From: Rubrivivax sp. A210
GTDB lineage: Bacteria > Pseudomonadota > Gammaproteobacteria > Burkholderiales > Burkholderiaceae_C
Reading direction: 5' to 3'
NCBI RefSeq assembly: GCF_904426505.1
Contig: NZ_CAJGBN010000034.1
Coordinates: 124,001 to 188,000, forward strand
Length of the DNA: 64,000 nucleotides
Part shown: positions 4,924-13,487 of the stretch, piece by piece
Numbering within the stretch: the first letter of the stretch is position 1
Layout: each line of letters opens with the position of its first letter
Position numbers and translations under genes: made by a program
The notes under the pieces: model-generated
Databases searched by the model: none
The model's input: the letters and a program-made list of their open reading frames with translations, nothing else
Told to the model about the DNA's origin: nothing

Positions 4924-5601
4924 ATGCAAAGACGTTCGTTCAATCACGCCCTGGGCGCCACCCTGGCCGGCTCGGCCCTCTGGAGCCCGGCCTGGGCGCT
5001 GAGCGAGGGTGACGCCGCCCAGGGCATACGCCAGGCCCTGCAGCGCGGTGCCGAGGCGGCGCTGGCGCTGCTGGGCCGCAAGGACGGCTTTCTCGGCAAC
5101 CCCAACGTCAAGATTCCGCTGCCCGACCACCTGGAAGATGCCGCGAAGCTGCTGCGCTCGCTGGGCCAGGGCCGGCGCATCGACGAGCTGGTGACGGCGA
5201 TGAACCGCGCCGCCGAGGCCGCCGTGCCCGAGGCGCGCAGCCTGCTCGTCGCCGCGGTGCGCGGCATCAGCGTGCAGGACGGGCTCAGGCTCGTGCGCGG
5301 CGGCGACAGCGCCGTCACCGACTTCTTCGTCGACAAGACACGCGCGCCGCTGGGCGAAAAGTTCCTGCCCATCATCAGCACCGCCACCGAGCGCGTCGCG
5401 CTCGCCAAGAAGTACAACGGCGTCGCCGGCAAGGCCGCCGGACTGGGCCTGGTCAAGCCCGAGGACGCCACCATCGAGAAATACGTGACGCGCAAGTCGC
5501 TCGACGGCCTCTACTACGTGATTGGCGAGGAGGAGCGCAAGATTCGCCGCGACCCGGTGGCCACCGGCAGCGCCCTGCTGCGGCGCGTCTTCGGCGGCTG
5601 A
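4924..5601 (+). CDS. DUF4197 family protein, probably exported by Tat
   Basis: A 225-residue protein whose mature part matches the DUF4197 family (LSEGDAAQGIRQALQRGAE, VKIPLPDHLEDAAKLLRS, the VTDFFVDKTRAPLGEKFLPI block and the C-terminal YVTRKSLDGLYYVIGEEE). No biochemical role is known for the family. The N-terminus RRSFNHALGATLAGSALWS ending AWA is a twin-arginine-like signal peptide, so it likely acts in the periplasm. The start is secured by AAGGAGG seven bases before the ATG. It is divergent from gcdH and convergent with the small gene after it. Confidence 0.9.
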   Translation: MQRRSFNHALGATLAGSALWSPAWALSEGDAAQGIRQALQRGAEAALALLGRKDGFLGNPNVKIPLPDHLEDAAKLLRSLGQGRRIDELVTAMNRAAEAAVPEARSLLVAAVRGISVQDGLRLVRGGDSAVTDFFVDKTRAPLGEKFLPIISTATERVALAKKYNGVAGKAAGLGLVKPEDATIEKYVTRKSLDGLYYVIGEEERKIRRDPVATGSALLRRVFGG

Positions 5602-5916: not shown

Positions 5917-6939
5917 ATGGGCCTGATGGACTTCATCAAGAAGCAGTTCATCGATGTTCTCGAATGGACCGAATCCGGCGACGGCGTGCTCGCCTGGCGC
6001 TTTCCGATGGCGGGCAACGAGATCCAGTACGGCGCTTCGTTGACGGTGCGCGAATCGCAGGCCGCGCTCTTCGTCAACGAGGGCCAGGTGGCCGACCAGT
6101 TCGGCCCCGGCATGCACAAGCTGGTGACGCAGACCATTCCGGTGCTCACCTACCTGAAGAACTGGGACAAGCTGTTCGAGAGCCCGTTCAAGAGCGACCT
6201 CTACTTCTTCTCGACCCGCCTGCAGGTGGATCAGCGCTGGGGCACGCAGCAGCCGGTGACGCTGCGCGACAAGGATTTCGGCGCCGTGCGCCTGCGCGCC
6301 TTCGGCAACTACGCCTACCGCGTGGCCGACCCGAAGAAGTTCCACACCGAGATCTCGGGCACGCGCGACACCTACACCGTGGCCGATCTCGACGGCCAGC
6401 TGCGCGGGCTGATGCTGCAGCACATCAGCGACGCGGTGGCGGCCAGCGGCATCGCCTTTCTCGACCTCGCGGCCAACCAGATCGAGTTCGCGCACCAGCT
6501 CCAGCTGGCCACCGCGCCCAGCTTCGAGGCCCTGGGCCTCAAGCTCGAGAGCGTGACGCTGCAGAACATCTCGCTGCCCGACGAGTTGCAGAAGATCCTC
6601 GACCAGAAGATCGGCATGGGCATGGTCGGCAACGACATGGGCCGCTTCATGCAGTACCAGACCGCCCAGGCCCTGCCCGAGATGGCCAAGGGCGCGGCCG
6701 GTGGTGGCGGCGGCGGCATCGCCGGCGATGCCATGGGCTTGGGCGCCGGCATGGCGCTGGGCCAGGTGCTGGCGCAGAACCTGGCCCAGGGCCTGCAGCC
6801 GGCGGGGGCAGCCGCAGCAGCGGCCAAGCCCGACGAGATCATGGCCATGCTCGAGAAGCTGGGCGATCTCAAGGCCAAGGGCATCCTCACCGACGAGGAA
6901 TTCAGCGCCAAGAAGGCCGAGTTGCTGAAGAAGCTTTGA
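5917..6939 (+). CDS. SPFH (band 7) domain protein with C-terminal SHOCT domain
   Basis: A 340-residue protein. Residues about 1-230 match the SPFH/virion-core-like group (GLMDFIKKQFIDVLEW start, VNEGQVADQFGPGMHKL, GNYAYRVADPKKF, GIAFLDLAANQIEF and the final strand KLESVTLQNISLPDELQK). No transmembrane helix is present, so it is peripheral or soluble. A glycine/alanine linker (about 265-305) leads to a SHOCT module (DEIMAMLEKLGDLKAKGIL, TDEEFSAKKAELLKKL), a short oligomerisation domain common in membrane-stress proteins. Strong ribosome site GAGGAG before ATG. It heads the DUF4178-DUF350-SpeE-like-FAD cluster, suggesting a membrane-associated scaffold for that module. Confidence 0.88.
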   Translation: MGLMDFIKKQFIDVLEWTESGDGVLAWRFPMAGNEIQYGASLTVRESQAALFVNEGQVADQFGPGMHKLVTQTIPVLTYLKNWDKLFESPFKSDLYFFSTRLQVDQRWGTQQPVTLRDKDFGAVRLRAFGNYAYRVADPKKFHTEISGTRDTYTVADLDGQLRGLMLQHISDAVAASGIAFLDLAANQIEFAHQLQLATAPSFEALGLKLESVTLQNISLPDELQKILDQKIGMGMVGNDMGRFMQYQTAQALPEMAKGAAGGGGGGIAGDAMGLGAGMALGQVLAQNLAQGLQPAGAAAAAAKPDEIMAMLEKLGDLKAKGILTDEEFSAKKAELLKKL

Positions 6940-6949
6940 CGCGGCCGCG

Positions 6950-8542
6950 GTGGCGCCGCCCGCAACATCCCCCCAGCGCGCCTGGCGCGCCGCCTGCCCC
7001 AATTGCGGCGCGCCGGTCGAATTCGCCTCGGCCGCGTCGGCCAGCGCCGTCTGCGGCTATTGCCGCAGCACGCTGCTGCGCGATGGCGAGGCGCTGTCGC
7101 GCATCGGCGTCAGCGCCGAACTCTTCGACGACCACTCGCCGCTGCAGCTGGGTGCCAGCGGGCGCTGGCAGGGGCTGGATTTCACCCTCGTCGGGCGCCT
7201 GCAATACCGCTTTGATGGCGGCAGCTGGAACGAGTGGCACGCTCTCTTCGGCAATGGCCGCAGCGGCTGGCTGTCCGAGGACAACGGCGCCTATGTGCTG
7301 GCCTTCGACGCGCCGCTGCCGGCCGCGGCGCCGGCGCTGGATGAACTGGCTGCCGGCGAGCAAAGGCTGATCGCCGACCAGTCCTGGAGCGTGGCCTCGG
7401 TGCTGCGTGCCAGGCTGGCTGCGGCCCAGGGCGAGCTGCCGCGGCCACCGGCCCTGGGCGAGCGCGAGTTCATCGTCGCCGACCTGCGCAATGCCCAGGA
7501 CGAAGTGGCCACGCTGGACGGCGCCGACCCGGCGCGCCCGGCCTGGGCCGTGGGCCGCGCCGTGCGCCTGGACGAGTTGGCGATGCAAGGCCTGCGCGAG
7601 GCCGTGGCCAAGACCCTGTCCGGCCGCGCCCTGGCCTGCCCGAGCTGCGGCGCGGCGTTGGCGCCGACCTTGCAGACCACGCAGTCCATCGTCTGCGGCC
7701 AGTGCATGGCGGTGGTCGATGTCTCGCAGGGCGTGGGCGCCGAACTCGCCCACCACGCGCAGGCCAATGCCGGCCACGACGGCGCCATGCCGCGCATTCC
7801 GCTGGGCGCCAGCGGCCCGCTGGCGCTGGGCGGGCCGCTGCGGCCCTGGCAGGTGGTGGGCTATGTCGAGCGCTGCGACATTCCGGCCGCGGGCGACGAC
7901 GAGGAGACGGTCTACTGGCGCGAATACCTGCTTTACCACCGCACGGACGGCTTCGCCTTCCTGGTCGACGCCGAGGACGGCTGGAGCTGGATGCGCCCGC
8001 TCACCGGCGCGCCCCAGGCCAAGGGCGACCGCGTGCAGTGGCAGGGCCGCCGTTACCGTGCCAAATACAGCTATGCCGCGCGGGCGAGCTGGGTGTTGGG
8101 CGAGTTCTACTGGCGACTGGCGCTGGACGACCGCGCCCAGGTCACCGACTACATCGGCGAGGGCAAGGACAGCGACCGCCGCCTGGCGCGCGAAGCCGTG
8201 GCCGGCGAGGTGACCTGGAGCGAGGGTGCGGCGTTGAAGGCGCAGGTCGTCGAAGCGGCCTTCGGCCTTGCCGCCGGCCGCCTGGCCGAGGCCAGGCCGA
8301 CGCTGGGCACGCTGAACGCCGAGGCCGCCGGGCCGCTGGCCAAGGTGGCGCTGGTGGTGGTGGTGATCGCCTTGCTGTTCTTCATGTCCTGGCTGGAAAG
8401 CCGCGACGACTGCAGCGCGCTGCGCGACACCTACGGCGCCAGCAGCGCCGAATACCGGCAATGCACGGCTTCCTCGGGCAGCAGCGGCCGCATCGGCGGC
8501 GGCTCCTGGGGTGGCTATTCCAGCGGCGGCGGCCACAAGTAG
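6950..8542 (+). CDS. DUF4178 protein with two zinc ribbons and a C-terminal TM helix
   Basis: A 530-residue protein built as a duplication. A zinc ribbon (Cys16, 19, 35, 38) precedes a DUF4178 domain (about 60-125, VGRLQYRFDGGSWNEWHAL, GWLSEDNGAYVLAF). A second ribbon (about Cys230, 233, 249, 252) precedes another DUF4178 domain (about 300-400, YWREYLLYHRTDGFAFLV, DGWSWMRPLTG). A helix at about 463-480 (VALVVVVIALLFFMSWL) and a Gly/Ser-rich tail follow, so the protein is likely anchored by its C-terminus with the ribbons in the cytoplasm. GTG start ten bases after the SPFH stop; no ATG fits. DUF4178 has no known activity; linkage to SpeE-like genes suggests a structural or ligand-sensing role. 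Confidence 0.88.
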   Translation: MAPPATSPQRAWRAACPNCGAPVEFASAASASAVCGYCRSTLLRDGEALSRIGVSAELFDDHSPLQLGASGRWQGLDFTLVGRLQYRFDGGSWNEWHALFGNGRSGWLSEDNGAYVLAFDAPLPAAAPALDELAAGEQRLIADQSWSVASVLRARLAAAQGELPRPPALGEREFIVADLRNAQDEVATLDGADPARPAWAVGRAVRLDELAMQGLREAVAKTLSGRALACPSCGAALAPTLQTTQSIVCGQCMAVVDVSQGVGAELAHHAQANAGHDGAMPRIPLGASGPLALGGPLRPWQVVGYVERCDIPAAGDDEETVYWREYLLYHRTDGFAFLVDAEDGWSWMRPLTGAPQAKGDRVQWQGRRYRAKYSYAARASWVLGEFYWRLALDDRAQVTDYIGEGKDSDRRLAREAVAGEVTWSEGAALKAQVVEAAFGLAAGRLAEARPTLGTLNAEAAGPLAKVALVVVVIALLFFMSWLESRDDCSALRDTYGASSAEYRQCTASSGSSGRIGGGSWGGYSSGGGHK

Positions 8543-8582
8543 CGCCGCGCTGCCGACTGAAACCCAACTGGAGGACGCCCTC

Positions 8583-8804
8583 ATGGACCTGGACTGGCTC
8601 AAACCCGCCATCGTGCTGGGATCGGTGCTGTACGCGGTGATCGGCGTTGCCGTGCTGTGGCTCAGCTTCGTCGTCATCGACAAGCTCACGCCCTACAAGC
8701 TGTGGGAGGAGATCTGCGACCGCAAGAACGTCGCGCTGGCCATCGTGGTGGGCGCCATGTTCATCGCCATCGGGCAGATCGTCGCCGCCGCCATCCACGG
8801 GTGA
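8583..8804 (+). CDS. DUF350 family inner-membrane protein
   Basis: A 73-residue protein with two helices (IVLGSVLYAVIGVAVLWLSF and VALAIVVGAMFIAIGQIVAA) joined by the conserved DUF350 loop DKLTPYKLWEEICDRKN. DUF350 proteins (YjfL-like) normally have two or four repeats of this pair; this is the single-unit form. The gene has GGAGG before its ATG and its stop overlaps the GTG of the SpeE-like gene (GTGA), which indicates translational coupling to that membrane enzyme. Function of DUF350 is not established. Confidence 0.9.
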   Translation: MDLDWLKPAIVLGSVLYAVIGVAVLWLSFVVIDKLTPYKLWEEICDRKNVALAIVVGAMFIAIGQIVAAAIHG

Positions 8805-10378
8805 GCGCGCCGCCCCTTGCCGAGGCGCCGCCAGCCGCCGCGCGGGTGGCGCCGGCCGAACTGGCGCTGCTGGTCTCGGTCTTCGTCATCGCCGCCTGCG
8901 GCCTGGTCTACGAGCTGGCCGCGGGCGCGCTGGCCAGCTATCTGCTGGGCGATTCGGTGCTGCAGTTCTCTACCGTGATCGGCGTCTACCTGTTCGCGAT
9001 GGGCGTCGGCTCCTGGCTCAGCCGCTACATCGAGCGCGAGCTGCCGGCGCAATTCCTGCGCATCGAGCTGGCGGTGGGCCTGGTCGGCGGCCTCACGCCG
9101 GCCTTGCTGTTCACCGCCCACGGCCTGCTGCCGGCCAGCGGCGAGGCCGCCTTTCGCACCCTGCTGTACGCGCTGGTGCTGGCGGTGGGCGTGCTGGTGG
9201 GGCTGGAGATTCCGCTGGTGATGCGCATCCTCAAGCGCCAGTTCAGCGCCCGCTATGCGCTCAAGGATCTGGTGTCGCAGGTGCTGACCTTCGACTACCT
9301 GGGCGCGCTGGCGGTGTCGCTGGCCTTCCCGCTGCTGCTGGTGCCGCAGCTGGGCCTGGTGCGCACCGGCCTCTTCTTCGGCCTGCTGAACGCCACGGTG
9401 GCGCTGTGGGCCTGGTGGCTGTTCCGCGCCGAACTGCGCGCACGCCGGGCCCAGGGCTGGGCCTGCGTGGGGGTGATCGTGGCGCTTTCGGCGGCCCTGA
9501 TGGGCGCCGAGCGCCTCAGCAGCTGGGCCGAAGACCGCTTCTACGGCGACCGCATCGTGCTGCGCGAATCCAGTCCCTACCAGCGCGTCGTCGTCACCGC
9601 CGGGCCAGCCGGCACGCGGCTCTTCTTGAACGGCAATCTGCAGTTCCACACCCGCGACGAATACCGCTACCACGAGGCCCTGGTACACCCGGCGCTGGCC
9701 GCCCACGGCGCGGCGAAGCGCGTGCTGGTGCTGGGCGGCGGCGACGGCATGGCGGTGCGCGAAATCCTCAAGTACCCGGGCGTCGAGCAGGTCACGCTGG
9801 TGGAGCTGGACCCGCACATGCTGCGCCTCTTCGGCGGCCTGCCCCTGCTGCGCGCGCTCAACGGCGACGCGCTCAACTCGCCGCGCGTGCGCCAGGTGCA
9901 GGCCGACGCCTACACCTGGCTGGAGAGCCACGACGAGGTCTTCGACGTCATCGTGGTCGACTTCCCCGACCCCAGCAACTTCGCCCTCGGCAAGCTCTAC
10001 ACCACCAGCTTCTACGAGCGCCTGGACCGCCACCTCTCGGCCGGTGGCTATGCGGTGGTGCAGGCCACCTCGCCGCTGGTGGCGCGGCGCAGCTTCTGGA
10101 CCGTGGTGGCCACGCTGGAGGCCGTGGGTCTGGCTACCCAGCCCTACCACGCCCATGTGCCCAGCTTCGGCGAATGGGGCTTCGTGATCGCCTCGCGCCG
10201 GCCCTGGCGTCGCCCCACGGCCTTGCCTGCCGGCCTGCGCTTCCTGACGCTGGAGGGCCTGCCGGCACTGATGCAGTTCCCGCCCGACATGGCGCGAGTG
10301 GCGGCCGAGCCCAACCGGCTTTCGAACCAGGTGCTGGTGCAGACCTTCGAAGAGGAATGGGGCGCGGTGCAGCGATGA
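8801..10378 (+). CDS. Membrane-fused spermidine-synthase-like enzyme
   Basis: A 525-residue protein. The N-terminal half (about 20-245) has around seven helices (LALLVSVFVIAACGLVYEL, LRTLLYALVLAVGVLVGLEI and others). The C-terminal half is a spermidine synthase-like Rossmann domain: GGGDGMAVREILKYP at about 312-326, VTLVELDPHM, and VDFPDPSN at about 386-393 followed by GKLYTTSFY. The DFPDP pair supplies the acidic residues that bind the amine in polyamine aminopropyltransferases, so transfer of an aminopropyl group from decarboxylated S-adenosylmethionine is likely, but the acceptor is unknown. GTG start overlaps the DUF350 stop; the stop overlaps the next ATG. Confidence 0.9.
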   Translation: MSAPPLAEAPPAAARVAPAELALLVSVFVIAACGLVYELAAGALASYLLGDSVLQFSTVIGVYLFAMGVGSWLSRYIERELPAQFLRIELAVGLVGGLTPALLFTAHGLLPASGEAAFRTLLYALVLAVGVLVGLEIPLVMRILKRQFSARYALKDLVSQVLTFDYLGALAVSLAFPLLLVPQLGLVRTGLFFGLLNATVALWAWWLFRAELRARRAQGWACVGVIVALSAALMGAERLSSWAEDRFYGDRIVLRESSPYQRVVVTAGPAGTRLFLNGNLQFHTRDEYRYHEALVHPALAAHGAAKRVLVLGGGDGMAVREILKYPGVEQVTLVELDPHMLRLFGGLPLLRALNGDALNSPRVRQVQADAYTWLESHDEVFDVIVVDFPDPSNFALGKLYTTSFYERLDRHLSAGGYAVVQATSPLVARRSFWTVVATLEAVGLATQPYHAHVPSFGEWGFVIASRRPWRRPTALPAGLRFLTLEGLPALMQFPPDMARVAAEPNRLSNQVLVQTFEEEWGAVQR

Positions 10379-11985
10379 GGCCAGCCCGGCGCCAGGCCCT
10401 GCTGGCCACGGCCGCGCTGGCGCTGGCGGGCTGCGCGCGGCCGGGCCCGCCGCTGCAGGGCGGCTGGGTGGGCAGCGACCCTGCGCGCGGCCATGGCCTG
10501 CGCGCTGTGCCCCGCGACAAGCTGGCCACCGGCCCGGTGCAGCGCGCCGCGGCCCTGGTGGTCGGCGCCGGCGTCGCCGGGCTGGCCGCGGCGCGGGCGC
10601 TGATGCAGGCCGGCGTCGACGACATCCGCGTCTTCGAGCTCGAAGACCAGGCCGGTGGCAACAGCCGCGGCCATGTGGTGGACGGCATCGCCTGCCCGCT
10701 GGGCGCTCACTACCTTCCACTCCCGGGGCCCCAGGCGCATGAGGTGGCGGACTGGTTGCACGAGATCGGCCTGCTGCACACGGTGGCCGGCCGCACGGTG
10801 GCCGACGAGCGCCACCTGTGCCACAGCCCGCAGGAGAGGCTGTTCATCGATGGCGCCTGGCATGAAGGACTGCTGCCGCCGGCCGCATCGGGCTCGGCCA
10901 CCCGGGCCGAGTACCAGCGTTTCGCCGCGGCCGTGGCACGGGCCCAGCGCGAAGCCGGCTTTGCCATCCCCAGCCGCCGCGCGCCCTGGACCGACGCCCA
11001 CCGCCGCCTGGACGCCCAGACCTTTGCGCAGTGGCTGGATGGCCTGGGCCTGCGCGACGAGCGCCTGCGCTGGTATCTCGACTACGCCTGCCGCGACGAC
11101 TACGGTGCGCCGGCGGCCGAGGTTTCGGCCTGGGCCGGTCTGCATTACTTCGGCAGCCGCCACGGCTTTCACGCCCCCGGCGCCGAAGACGGCGAGCGCG
11201 AGGCGGTGCTGACCTGGCCCGAGGGCAATGCCTGGCTGGTGCGCCACCTGGCCGCGCCGTTGGGCGAGCGCCTGCTGGCGGCGCGCAGCGCGCGCCGGGT
11301 CAGCGTCGGCCGCCATGGCGTGGAGTTGACGGTGTGGAACGAAGGCCGTGGCACGGCCGAGACCTGGGCCGCGCCGGCCGTGATCCTGGCCGTGCCGATG
11401 CATGTGGCGGCACGAATCGTCGACGCGCCGCCGCCGGCGCTGGTGGTCGCCGCAGCGCTGATCACGCATGCTCCCTGGCTGGTGGCCCACCTGCGCCTGG
11501 ACGCGCCGCTGCTGGACCGCGGCGTCGGCGCGTCGGCGGCCTGGGACAACGTCTACTACGGCGGCGCCTCGCTGGGCTATGTCGACGCCGGCCACCAGCG
11601 CATGGACCCCACGCCCCGGCCCACCGTGCTGAGCGCCTACTGGGCGTTGGCGGCAGCCCAGCGCGCGGCGCTGGCCGCACCCGATTGGCGGCCCTGGGCG
11701 CAGCAGGTCATCGCCGAACTGCTGCCCTTGCACCCCGACCTGCCGCAGCGCCTGCAGCGCCTGGACCTGGCCCGCCACGGCCACGCGATGGCGGTGCCGC
11801 GGCCGGGCGTGCGCGGCCATGCGGCGCTGGTCGCACTGGCCGATGCGGGGCCGGCGACAAGGCTGCACTTCGCTCACGCCGATCTCTCGGGCTATTCCGT
11901 CTTCGAGGAGGCCTTCGGCCACGGCCACCGCGCCGGAATGGCGCTGGCGCGGCAGTGGCAGCGCGGCCTGTTTCGCCGCGCCTGA
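10375..11985 (+). CDS. FAD-dependent amine-oxidase-like lipoprotein
   Basis: A 536-residue protein. The N-terminus RPARRQALLATAALALAGC has an arginine pair and a lipobox (Cys20), fitting a Tat-exported lipoprotein, which makes sense for a protein that binds FAD before export. The dinucleotide-binding motif VVGAGVAGLAAARALMQAG starts near residue 61 and is followed by the acidic residue of the second strand (FELEDQAGGNSRG), as in NAD(P)-binding-8/amine oxidase families. The substrate is unknown; sitting directly behind a SpeE-like gene with an ATGA overlap suggests oxidation of a polyamine product. It could instead be a desaturase-like flavoprotein. Confidence 0.82.
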   Translation: MRPARRQALLATAALALAGCARPGPPLQGGWVGSDPARGHGLRAVPRDKLATGPVQRAAALVVGAGVAGLAAARALMQAGVDDIRVFELEDQAGGNSRGHVVDGIACPLGAHYLPLPGPQAHEVADWLHEIGLLHTVAGRTVADERHLCHSPQERLFIDGAWHEGLLPPAASGSATRAEYQRFAAAVARAQREAGFAIPSRRAPWTDAHRRLDAQTFAQWLDGLGLRDERLRWYLDYACRDDYGAPAAEVSAWAGLHYFGSRHGFHAPGAEDGEREAVLTWPEGNAWLVRHLAAPLGERLLAARSARRVSVGRHGVELTVWNEGRGTAETWAAPAVILAVPMHVAARIVDAPPPALVVAAALITHAPWLVAHLRLDAPLLDRGVGASAAWDNVYYGGASLGYVDAGHQRMDPTPRPTVLSAYWALAAAQRAALAAPDWRPWAQQVIAELLPLHPDLPQRLQRLDLARHGHAMAVPRPGVRGHAALVALADAGPATRLHFAHADLSGYSVFEEAFGHGHRAGMALARQWQRGLFRRA

Positions 11986-11990
11986 AGAGC

Positions 11991-12374
11991 CTACGGCGCG
12001 GCGCCGCGGCGCAGCCGGTTGCGCGTCACCGAGCGCGGCGCAAAGCCGCGCAGCAGGGCTTGCAGCAGCGCATCGGCGCGTTGCGAGTTGTCGGCGCCGA
12101 AATTGCAGACGTAGACATCCAGCGTCACCGCGCCCAGTTCGGGCCAGGTGTGGACGGCCAGGTGCGATTCGGCCAGCAGCACGACGCCGGTGACGCCACC
12201 CCCGCCACCGGCAGGGGCCGCGTCGCCGAAGCCGTGGAAAAGATCGCCCACCGCCTGCAGCCCGGCCGCGGCCACGGCCTGTACGCACAGTGCGCGCAGC
12301 GCGCTGGCGTCGCGCATCGCCGGCAGCGCCTCGTCGCAGCCGCGCAGATCGGCCGTGAGCTGCAGGCCTTCCAA
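11991..12374 (-). CDS. speD: S-adenosylmethionine decarboxylase proenzyme
   Basis: A 127-residue prokaryotic-type AdoMet decarboxylase that makes decarboxylated AdoMet, the aminopropyl donor for spermidine synthase. The self-cleavage site is LLAESHLAVHTWPE, with the pyruvoyl-forming Ser70, His75 and Cys90 in the same relative spacing as the short bacterial enzymes (5 and 20 residues). DLRGCD near the N-terminus is also conserved. No ATG fits; TTG at 12374 is chosen because AAGGGG lies five bases before it and the length is right. It follows xdhC by 17 bases and converges with the SpeE-like cluster, whose enzyme would consume its product. Confidence 0.9.
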   Translation of the reverse strand: MEGLQLTADLRGCDEALPAMRDASALRALCVQAVAAAGLQAVGDLFHGFGDAAPAGGGGGVTGVVLLAESHLAVHTWPELGAVTLDVYVCNFGADNSQRADALLQALLRGFAPRSVTRNRLRRGAAP

Positions 12375-12391: not shown

Positions 12392-13405
12392 TCAGCCCGT
12401 GGCGCAGGCCGAGCCTGCCGCCACCGCTGCTGCCGGCAGGGCCGAGCCGGCCTTTTTCTGCGCCAGCGTGACGCCGTTGCGAACGGCCACGATCTCGGCC
12501 GCGATGGACACCGCGATCTCGGCCGGCGTGCGCGCGCCCAGGTCCAGGCCCACCGGGCCGTGCAGGCGGGCGATTTCGTCGGCGCTGAGGTCGAAGAGCT
12601 TGAGCCTGTCCTTGCGCCGGGCGGTGTTGGCGCGCGAACCCAGGGCGCCCACGTAGAAGGCGGGCGACTTCAGCGCCTCGAGCAAGGCCAGGTCGTCGAG
12701 TTTGGGGTCGTGGGTCAACGCCACCACGGCGCTGTGCGGGTCGAGCTGCAGCTCCTGCACCAGGTCGTCGGGCATGGACTTGCTGAAGCGCGTGCCGGGC
12801 ACGTCCCAGGTCAGGTGGTACTCCTCGCGCGGGTCGCAGCAGATCAGCTCGAAATCCAGCGCCAGCGCCATGGGCGCCAGGGCGCGGCTGAGCTGGCCGG
12901 CGCCGATCACGACCAGACGCCAACGTGGGCCGTAGAGCGCGCGCAGCGTGTGGCCGTCGAAGACGAAGGCCTCGCCGCGCACGGCCGCCTCCACCGTGAC
13001 GGCGCCGCTGGCAAGATCTAGCCGCCGCGCCACCAGTTCATGGCGCGCGGTGCGGGCCAACACGTCGTCGATCCAGGCGGCGTCGGCCAGCGGCTCTTGC
13101 ACCAGCCGCAGCGTGCCACCGCAGGGCAGGCCGAAGCGGGCCGCCTCTTCCTTGCTGACGCCGTAGTTCACCAGCGCCGGTGCGCTGACGCGCTCGCCCT
13201 CGCGCACACGGGCGATGAGATCGTCCTCCACGCAGCCGCCGCTCACCGAGCCCACCACCAGGCCGTCATCGCGCAGCGCGAGCAGGGCGCCGGGCGGGCG
13301 CGGCGCCGAGCCCCAGGTCTCGATCACCGTCACCAGCCACACGCCGCGGCCGGCGCGTTGCCATTCGCGCGCCTGTTGCAGCACCTGCAGGTCCAGGCTG
13401 TCCAT
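12392..13405 (-). CDS. xdhC: XdhC/CoxI family molybdoenzyme maturation protein
   Basis: A 337-residue XdhC-like protein. The N-terminal XdhC/CoxI domain shows WLVTVIETWGSAPRPPGALL and SVSGGCVEDD; the C-terminal Rossmann domain shows LVVIGAGQLSRALAPMA, CDPREEYH, ALTHDPKLDD and YVGALGSR, then DLGARTPAEIAVSIAAEI. Family members bind the molybdenum cofactor and promote its sulfuration and insertion into xanthine dehydrogenase-type enzymes. No molybdoenzyme subunit gene is in this window, so the client is unknown. GGAGG is eight bases before ATG 13405; a GTG codon just before it is a less likely start. It probably co-transcribes with speD. Confidence 0.92.
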   Translation of the reverse strand: MDSLDLQVLQQAREWQRAGRGVWLVTVIETWGSAPRPPGALLALRDDGLVVGSVSGGCVEDDLIARVREGERVSAPALVNYGVSKEEAARFGLPCGGTLRLVQEPLADAAWIDDVLARTARHELVARRLDLASGAVTVEAAVRGEAFVFDGHTLRALYGPRWRLVVIGAGQLSRALAPMALALDFELICCDPREEYHLTWDVPGTRFSKSMPDDLVQELQLDPHSAVVALTHDPKLDDLALLEALKSPAFYVGALGSRANTARRKDRLKLFDLSADEIARLHGPVGLDLGARTPAEIAVSIAAEIVAVRNGVTLAQKKAGSALPAAAVAAGSACATG

Positions 13406-13487
13406 CACTATGCCCTCCGGAGGAAGGGCGAAGTATGCGGCCCGCCCGCGGCCGGCGCTGAGCGCGGGTGACGATCCCGCCCGCGTC

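Follow-up and report, generated by a model that had tools for sequence, protein, structure and literature searches.

A cluster of five co-directional genes, faced by a convergent speD gene, was identified in Rubrivivax sp. A210 (order Burkholderiales) in a 64,000-nucleotide stretch of contig NZ_CAJGBN010000034.1 (positions 124,001 to 188,000 of the forward strand, assembly GCF_904426505.1), which is termed the window. The six genes, treated here as one module, encode an SPFH protein, a DUF4178 protein, a DUF350 protein, a fusion of seven transmembrane (TM) helices to an aminopropyltransferase domain (7TM-SpeE), a flavin adenine dinucleotide (FAD) protein and an S-adenosylmethionine (AdoMet) decarboxylase (SpeD). 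Their window coordinates are as follows.

5917..6939, + strand: SPFH (Band_7_1) protein with a C-terminal SHOCT domain, 340 residues; Pfam Band_7_1 251 bits, SHOCT 36 bits
6950..8542, + strand: twin-DUF4178 protein, 530 residues, with two zinc-ribbon-like CxxC motif sets, a C-terminal TM helix and a Gly/Ser tail; Pfam DUF4178 in two stretches
8583..8804, + strand: DUF350 protein, 73 residues, a single two-helix unit; Pfam DUF350 54.8 bits
8801..10378, + strand: 7TM-SpeE, 525 residues, seven TM helices, then an aminopropyltransferase domain at the C-terminus (approximately residues 250-470); NCBIfam NF002956 678 bits (cut-off 472)
10375..11985, + strand: flavin amine-oxidase-family lipoprotein (FAD protein), 536 residues, with a twin-arginine/lipobox N-terminus; Pfam Amino_oxidase PF01593 71.8 bits
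11991..12374, - strand: speD, putative class 1b AdoMet decarboxylase, 127 residues, TTG start; AdoMet_dc 86 bits, TIGR03330 75.9 bits (cut-off 75.65)

The SPFH and DUF4178 genes are separated by 10 bases and the DUF4178 and DUF350 genes by 40 bases. The DUF350 and 7TM-SpeE genes overlap in GTGA, the 7TM-SpeE and FAD genes overlap in ATGA, and the stop ends of the FAD gene and speD are five bases apart. The TTG start of speD at 12374 agrees with the start position common among its relatives. In the NCBIfam naming, 7TM-SpeE is a PRK03612-type polyamine aminopropyltransferase. The coordinates, families, gaps and overlaps given in the initial annotation of the window, which proposed a polyamine module at the membrane, were borne out by Pfam and NCBIfam scans.

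The SPFH protein is likely a scaffold on the cytoplasmic face of the membrane. Two zinc ribbons had been read in the DUF4178 protein; its CxxC-type cysteines are conserved (eight are fully or almost fully conserved in 48 sequences, 47 of 66 relatives having been used in the alignment), but the zinc-ribbon Pfam matches score below their cut-offs. The AlphaFold2 model of this protein (predicted local distance difference test score, pLDDT, 85.5) consists of two beta-rich repeats and a helix at residues 462-482. The whole-protein model gave no Foldseek match at E ≤0.001 and no VIA-align Z ≥5 in 976 aligned chains.

Joint distribution and layouts of the module genes

The same 200 Burkholderiales genomes were searched with five queries (7TM-SpeE, DUF4178, FAD protein, SpeD and DUF350). 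Full-length 7TM-SpeE was found in 32 genomes (the module genomes) at E ≤1.6e-163, the next match being at 7.3e-39; at most seven candidates were scored per genome in the 7TM-SpeE and FAD searches, and a weak SpeE could escape. The DUF4178 gene was present in exactly the same 32 genomes and in none of the other 168. The FAD protein was found in 31 of the 32 and in one of the others; the extra genome is an 86% complete draft (G195) and the one that lacks the protein a 680-contig draft of the same genus (G159). SpeD was present in 31/32 module genomes versus 38/168 others. Fisher tests were applied to this co-occurrence table; because the genomes share ancestry, the p-values exaggerate their independence.

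DUF350 was less exclusive. The expectation that a SpeE-like gene and DUF350 always co-occur held in 31 of the 32 module genomes, but DUF350 was also found without 7TM-SpeE in 18 of the other 168 above the cut-off (21 with weak matches counted). In G083, G175 and G152 it adjoins genes for a short SpeE and SpeD in other clusters. Free assortment of the five genes searched is ruled out for this order by the 200-genome table. Their independent distribution was thus not seen, DUF350 being a partial exception, and the joint distribution supports the view of the module as one functional unit. Some arrangements are looser. In G171 (locus L033), SpeE is separated from DUF350 and DUF4178 by about 10 kb and from speD by about 25 kb. 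In G111 (L044), DUF350, DUF4178 and the FAD gene are found about 20 kb away, and speD is on another contig.

Neighbouring genes were counted in two samples of loci. The order sample comprised 31 fetched loci plus the window, and 30 of these 32 were usable. The named sample comprised the best 80 of at least 583 loci (from Roseateles, Rhizobacter, Variovorax, Acidovorax, Hydrogenophaga and others); it is biased to near relatives, and 56 of the 80 were usable. Loci in which either flank of SpeE was shorter than 7 kb, or in which SpeE was not called, were excluded from the counts. Two main layouts were found. In layout A, DUF4178, DUF350 (one unit), SpeE and FAD genes follow one another, with or without SPFH. 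In layout B, DUF4178, SPFH and a two-unit DUF350, often together with SpeD, are divergent from SpeE and FAD. SPFH adjoins DUF4178 in both.

In the order sample (30 usable loci), FAD was present in 27, DUF350 in 28, DUF4178 in 28, SPFH in 19 and SpeD in 18; the corresponding numbers for the 56 usable named loci are 55, 54, 53, 49 and 20. The FAD gene directly neighbours SpeE, in the same orientation, in 27/30 order loci and 45/56 named loci. The placement of speD is more variable: it is convergent downstream in one locus of the order sample, co-directional downstream in five and upstream on the other strand in 12, and the 20 speD genes of the named sample are all convergent downstream. Because three placements occur, the linkage of speD is independent of any single inherited arrangement.

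In a sample of the phylum, 29 of 398 genomes contained a match at E ≤1e-60. Twenty-two of the loci were fetched, four from the family of the window and 18 from outside it. A DUF350 match was found in 16 of these 18 (one of them weak), and the other two are short contigs (L161 and L162, of 7.2 and 4.3 kb). SpeE and DUF350 are the core of the module; SPFH and the FAD protein are mainly the form of it found in this order.

DUF350 occurs in three sizes, namely one unit of about 73 residues (layout A), two units of about 133 residues (layout B) and 281 residues in a PspA-type cluster (L154:11639-12481). The three sizes suggest that the short form assembles as an oligomer. Large genes are found between SpeE and FAD in some relatives (L088:11639-16332, and clusters c58/c78 in L106, L123 and L137), and one gene inserted there has a start resembling that of a response regulator. 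In other relatives, different genes separate DUF350 from SpeE.

SpeD and the donor site of 7TM-SpeE

Residues S69, H74 and C89 of SpeD correspond, with the same spacing, to S63, H68 and C83 of the T. maritima enzyme (pyruvoyl serine, processing histidine and catalytic cysteine), and each is at least 95% conserved in 40 aligned module SpeDs, that of the window included. Judged by these residues, the speD product is probably a class 1b AdoMet decarboxylase, with AdoMet rather than ornithine or arginine as its likely substrate; its TIGR03330 score is barely over the cut-off. A class 1b SpeD adjoining a second aminopropyltransferase is also known from Pseudomonas aeruginosa PA4773-PA4774 (SpeD2-SpeE2), in which SpeE2, of 349 residues, was identified as a thermospermine synthase (PMC11107197), whereas the partner encoded here is a 525-residue 7TM fusion.

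The catalytic motifs of 7TM-SpeE are intact in an alignment of 74 sequences, for which 73 of the 79 listed relatives were used. The donor motif GxG(D/E)G reads GGGDG, with G312, G313, G314 and D315 invariant and G316 at least 90% conserved; D387, D390 and P391 of the DxxDP motif and Y290 are likewise invariant. Binding of decarboxylated AdoMet requires an acidic residue in GxG(D/E)G (PMC10349129). The domain has the fold of solved aminopropyltransferases (Foldseek match 1uir, E 4.6e-17), and 1uir is also its best sequence match in the PDB. It scores 133.8 bits with TIGR00417, below the cut-off of 249.55, and is covered by the broader NF002956 model, 'polyamine aminopropyltransferase'. A canonical spermidine synthase is soluble, cytosolic and uses putrescine; the seven TM helices and the topology signals described below argue against that class for 7TM-SpeE.

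The speD gene gives the sole PF02675 match in the Rubrivivax sp. A210 genome, and 7TM-SpeE is the only SpeE-like protein found there whose donor motif is intact. Two other SpeE-like proteins (L065 and L066, on contigs C3 and C7) read GVGAG and GLGTG in the donor motif. Both also lack DxxDP, and that of L066, with 848 residues, is a longer membrane fusion; they may be methyltransferases. At E 1e-20, 27 of the 69 SpeD genomes of the order contain only 7TM-SpeE, 36 only a short SpeE, four both and two neither, so that 67 of the 69 contain one or the other. A second SpeE as the user of the speD product is rejected for the A210 genome itself, and a short SpeE is present in four of the 31 SpeD-bearing module genomes. 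Because speD is single, no other donor motif is intact and 27 genomes contain 7TM-SpeE only, decarboxylated AdoMet is very probably used by 7TM-SpeE in genomes like that of A210. The earlier proposal that SpeD supplies a membrane SpeE-type enzyme gains support from the single speD and the sole intact donor motif.

In G015, G038, G050, G059 and G102, the short-SpeE and SpeD matches are adjacent and fall in open frames of equal length (410 to 652 residues). Fusions of AdoMet decarboxylase and aminopropyltransferase seem, from these frames, to occur in this order.

Predicted location of the two enzymes

The AlphaFold2 model of 7TM-SpeE (pLDDT 87.7; predicted template modelling score, pTM, 0.65) contains TM helices at residues 18-49, 53-76, 81-109, 115-148, 154-184, 186-207 and 215-234, in agreement with the 'about seven helices' read earlier. 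A short helix of 13 residues (236-248) stands between TM7 and the catalytic domain. According to the positive-inside rule, positively charged loops stay cytoplasmic. In 111 sequences, the mean numbers of Lys plus Arg in loops 2-3, 4-5 and 6-7 are 2.14, 3.93 and 2.90, whereas those in loops 1-2, 3-4 and 5-6 are 0.00, 0.01 and 0.19; this pattern is repeated in 18 distant sequences. The N-terminus is therefore predicted inside and the SpeE domain outside, because the loop charges are read by this rule. The opposite, N-out topology is ruled out, as it would place the positively charged loops outside.

The SpeE domain is also poor in cysteine, with 0.09 per 100 residues versus 1.11 in short SpeE (n=20) and 0.98 in its own TM part. 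The short-SpeE set consisted of 20 of the 41 order genomes with a short-SpeE match. No cysteine is present in 88 of the 111 domains and a single one in the remaining 23. In a set thinned to 15 sequences of less than 70% identity, the mean is 0.47 cysteines per domain versus 2.45 in the 20 short SpeE proteins (P 3e-6), one of which is likewise cysteine-free. The 18 distant SpeE domains contain no cysteine in 15 cases, one in two and two in one. This poverty in cysteine is consistent with an oxidising compartment. On the basis of the seven helices, the charge asymmetry and the cysteine depletion, the SpeE domain is predicted to be periplasmic. No report of a periplasmic aminopropyltransferase was found in a search of the open literature, most subscription papers being outside its reach.

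The FAD protein contains an FAD-binding Rossmann motif (NAD_binding_8, 46.8 bits), and MAO-B and putrescine oxidase lead the PDB sequence matches of its profile; NCBIfam gave no match above cut-off for this protein. The twin-arginine motif RRx[FLWVMA][LIVMAFG] was found in 91 of 96 FAD N-termini, including that of the window, and 85 of the 91 have in addition a lipobox-like cysteine (L085 and FAD matches below 400 bits were excluded from the set). Three of the five N-termini without the motif have RR with an off-pattern residue, and the other two stretches (L127 and L132) probably start late. Export by the twin-arginine translocation (Tat) system suits flavoproteins that fold with their cofactor bound. 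The FAD protein is predicted from its N-terminus to be a Tat-exported lipoprotein located outside the cytoplasm.

In an alignment using 46 of 65 relatives, a near-invariant GHxxR follows the lipobox of the FAD family (residues 39-43 of the window protein), and H112, C149, C239, H453, H470 and H501 are among the His and Cys residues invariant in 47 sequences.

Candidate functions and related systems

Gene clusters consisting of SpeD, an MFS-SpdSyn fusion and DUF350 were reportedly described by Li et al. in 2019, the membrane fusion being the only aminopropyltransferase and lying next to DUF350. Operons of 7TM-SpeE, DUF350 and DUF4178 have already been described by Ravi et al. 2024 (PMC11237479), together with a band-7/SHOCT variant that includes an AdoMet decarboxylase and a polyamine oxidase. 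The protein families of that variant are those found here, and it likewise lacks the CesT-PspA dyad. Differences are that the variant was put under an ATP-grasp group and that DUF4178 was predicted to be intracellular (PMC11237479). The band-7 and SHOCT domains, DUF350, AdoMet decarboxylase and a polyamine-oxidase-like protein were all found in the window, with no PspA (CesT was not sought genome-wide). An ATP-grasp ligase resembling glutathionylspermidine synthetase, as in the third group of Ravi et al., was not found among the eight genes scanned, and the genome was not searched for one. The variant has two TM helices between band-7 and SHOCT (PMC11237479); a Gly/Ala-rich stretch separates these domains in the SPFH protein of the window.

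The FAD lipoprotein had been thought a less described fifth member, which does not stand, a 'polyamine oxidase' being already named in this variant (PMC11237479). The section of Ravi et al. on these operons is silent on a periplasmic SpeE domain, on Tat export and on strict co-occurrence. The parts list is known. To it are added here the strict co-occurrence, a module without PspA, a lipoprotein with a Tat signal and the prediction that the active site is periplasmic.

Aminopropylation in the envelope is the favoured explanation of the gene set and is held with moderate confidence. Cytosolic SpeD would decarboxylate AdoMet, and 7TM-SpeE, with its N-terminus inside, would expose its aminopropyltransferase domain at the periplasmic side of the inner membrane. 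The aminopropyl group would be transferred to an envelope acceptor, with lipid headgroups, proteins and exported amines all likelier than the cytoplasmic putrescine pool; phosphatidylethanolamine, lipopolysaccharide, lipoprotein amines and an exported diamine are candidates. Decarboxylated AdoMet would have to cross the membrane, perhaps via the 7TM part. The Tat-exported flavin lipoprotein would next oxidise the aminopropylated product or a coupled amine, and DUF350, the membrane-anchored zinc-ribbon/DUF4178 protein and SPFH would together form a membrane scaffold. Computation shows the gene linkage, the residues of the donor site and of SpeD and the lack of a PspA match, the topology and the export are predictions, and the passage of the donor, the acceptor, the sequence of reactions and the scaffold are inferences. 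Work in the envelope rather than on the cytoplasmic pool is proposed because the catalytic domain and the flavoenzyme are both predicted outside the cytoplasm. The full extracytoplasmic pathway, in which decarboxylated AdoMet crosses through or beside the 7TM part, an envelope lipid or protein is aminopropylated and the new amine is oxidised by the Tat flavoprotein, is put forward tentatively and is less probable than envelope aminopropylation as such.

Since 7TM-SpeE is tied genome-wide to an exported flavoenzyme and its active site is predicted to be periplasmic, the search for the acceptor is best directed at the envelope and not at the polyamine pool. If envelope aminopropylation is correct, a polyamine-type donor would be used outside the cytoplasm for covalent modification of the envelope. 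This would amount to a new class of envelope modification, spread over many Burkholderiales and represented by weaker relatives in the phylum at large.

The fungal methyltransferase NHMT resembles 7TM-SpeE in domain layout. It has an N-terminal 7TM part and a C-terminal SpdS-like domain, is located in the endoplasmic reticulum (ER), acts on secreted proteins and needs its 7TM part (PMC10349129). It differs in having Ile in place of the acidic residue of GxG(D/E)G, hence its methyltransferase activity, whereas D315 is invariant here. Its authors raise limited AdoMet in the ER as a possible limit (PMC10349129).

Several points weigh against envelope aminopropylation. Its weak point is the supply of the donor across the membrane. 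The side of the SpeE domain is assigned from statistical signals in related sequences. We know of no periplasmic pool or carrier of decarboxylated AdoMet. The acceptor pocket retains several SpeE residues and is compatible with an ordinary diamine acceptor. The speD gene lies inside the locus in only 18/30 and 20/56 usable loci, and in the four genomes with SpeD and both SpeE types it adjoins the short one. The FAD gene and SpeE are on different contigs in two module genomes (G032 and G077). Among the 18 loci outside the family of the window, FAD was found in two and SPFH in three, so both stand outside the universal core. The NHMT precedent is one of methyl transfer, its 7TM part is described as unique to fungi, and the passages on it are silent on the side of the ER membrane concerned (PMC10349129).

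A rather less probable explanation is the synthesis of a free polyamine at the membrane (spermidine, norspermidine or aminopropyl-2-hydroxyputrescine), with the flavoprotein acting on it as a polyamine oxidase. The motifs of true aminopropyltransferases are intact, and the genome encodes one ornithine/lysine/arginine-type decarboxylase (PF01276, 495.7 bits), so that a diamine is likely available. The flavoprotein's matches to MAO-B and putrescine oxidase, and the polyamine oxidase named in such operons (PMC11237479), point the same way. However, the topology signals place both enzymes outside the cytoplasm, membrane fusions of this kind reportedly do not replace spermidine synthase (Li et al. 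2019), and the beta-proteobacterium Ralstonia pickettii was reported to make putrescine and 2-hydroxyputrescine (PMC7857480). The initial annotation, in which a polyamine is made and then oxidised at the membrane, is thus supported in part: the SpeE motifs are kept, but both enzymes are predicted outside the cytoplasm and other substrates are possible. Ravi et al. considered polyamine monitoring as a role of such systems and also, with reference to Li et al. 2019, the aminopropylation of other substrates (PMC11237479).

It is improbable that one helix fails to cross and that the SpeE domain is cytoplasmic, modifying an inner-leaflet lipid, DUF350 or another module protein, with the FAD protein alone outside. 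Such a location would suit a donor made in the cytoplasm, and the helix at 236-248 lies between TM7 and the domain; seven clear helices, the charge asymmetry in 111 and 18 sequences and the cysteine depletion argue against it.

A link to PspA-type systems had also been suggested. Related genes are reported in PspA-type operons (PMC11237479), but no PF04012 match was found in the Rubrivivax sp. A210 genome (99.73% complete), and dependence on PspA is rejected for this organism. PspA was found above the cut-off in 8/32 module genomes versus 7/168 others; 24 of the 32 lack it at that cut-off, and in all eight carriers PspA and 7TM-SpeE are on different contigs or more than 0.6 Mb apart. In the phylum sample, the Pfam search for PspA covered selected proteins from four of the 22 loci. 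The distant locus L154 contains CesT and PspA beside SpeD, DUF4178, a longer DUF350 and SpeE, and L160 also contains PspA; by its gene content, this arrangement is the operon type of Ravi et al.

In Bacillus subtilis PspA-YdjG-YdjH-YdjI, an SPFH protein likewise works with integral membrane proteins, and PspA depends on YdjI to reach the membrane (PMC8581546). YdjG has two zinc ribbons and a TM segment according to Ravi et al. (PMC11237479). The present module differs in having polyamine enzymes instead of PspA, and no TPM domain (YdjH) is among the Pfam matches of its genes. A PspA-type membrane-stress system, with the polyamine enzymes as sensors or modulators and SPFH recruiting PspA as YdjI does, is the least probable explanation: the YdjI precedent, L154 and L160 and the higher frequency of PspA in module genomes favour it, whereas the missing PspA in A210 and in most module genomes, and its distance from 7TM-SpeE in all carriers, make it very unlikely.

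Two neighbouring genes flank the module. An XdhC-family gene (12392-13408, - strand) ends 17 bases ahead of the speD start on the same strand, and speD in Rubrivivax sp. A210 may be transcribed from the xdhC transcript; XdhC had no conserved-neighbour status in the clustering of the relatives' loci. A DUF4197 protein with the N-terminus MQRRSF, which may be exported by Tat, is encoded directly upstream (4924-5601, + strand).

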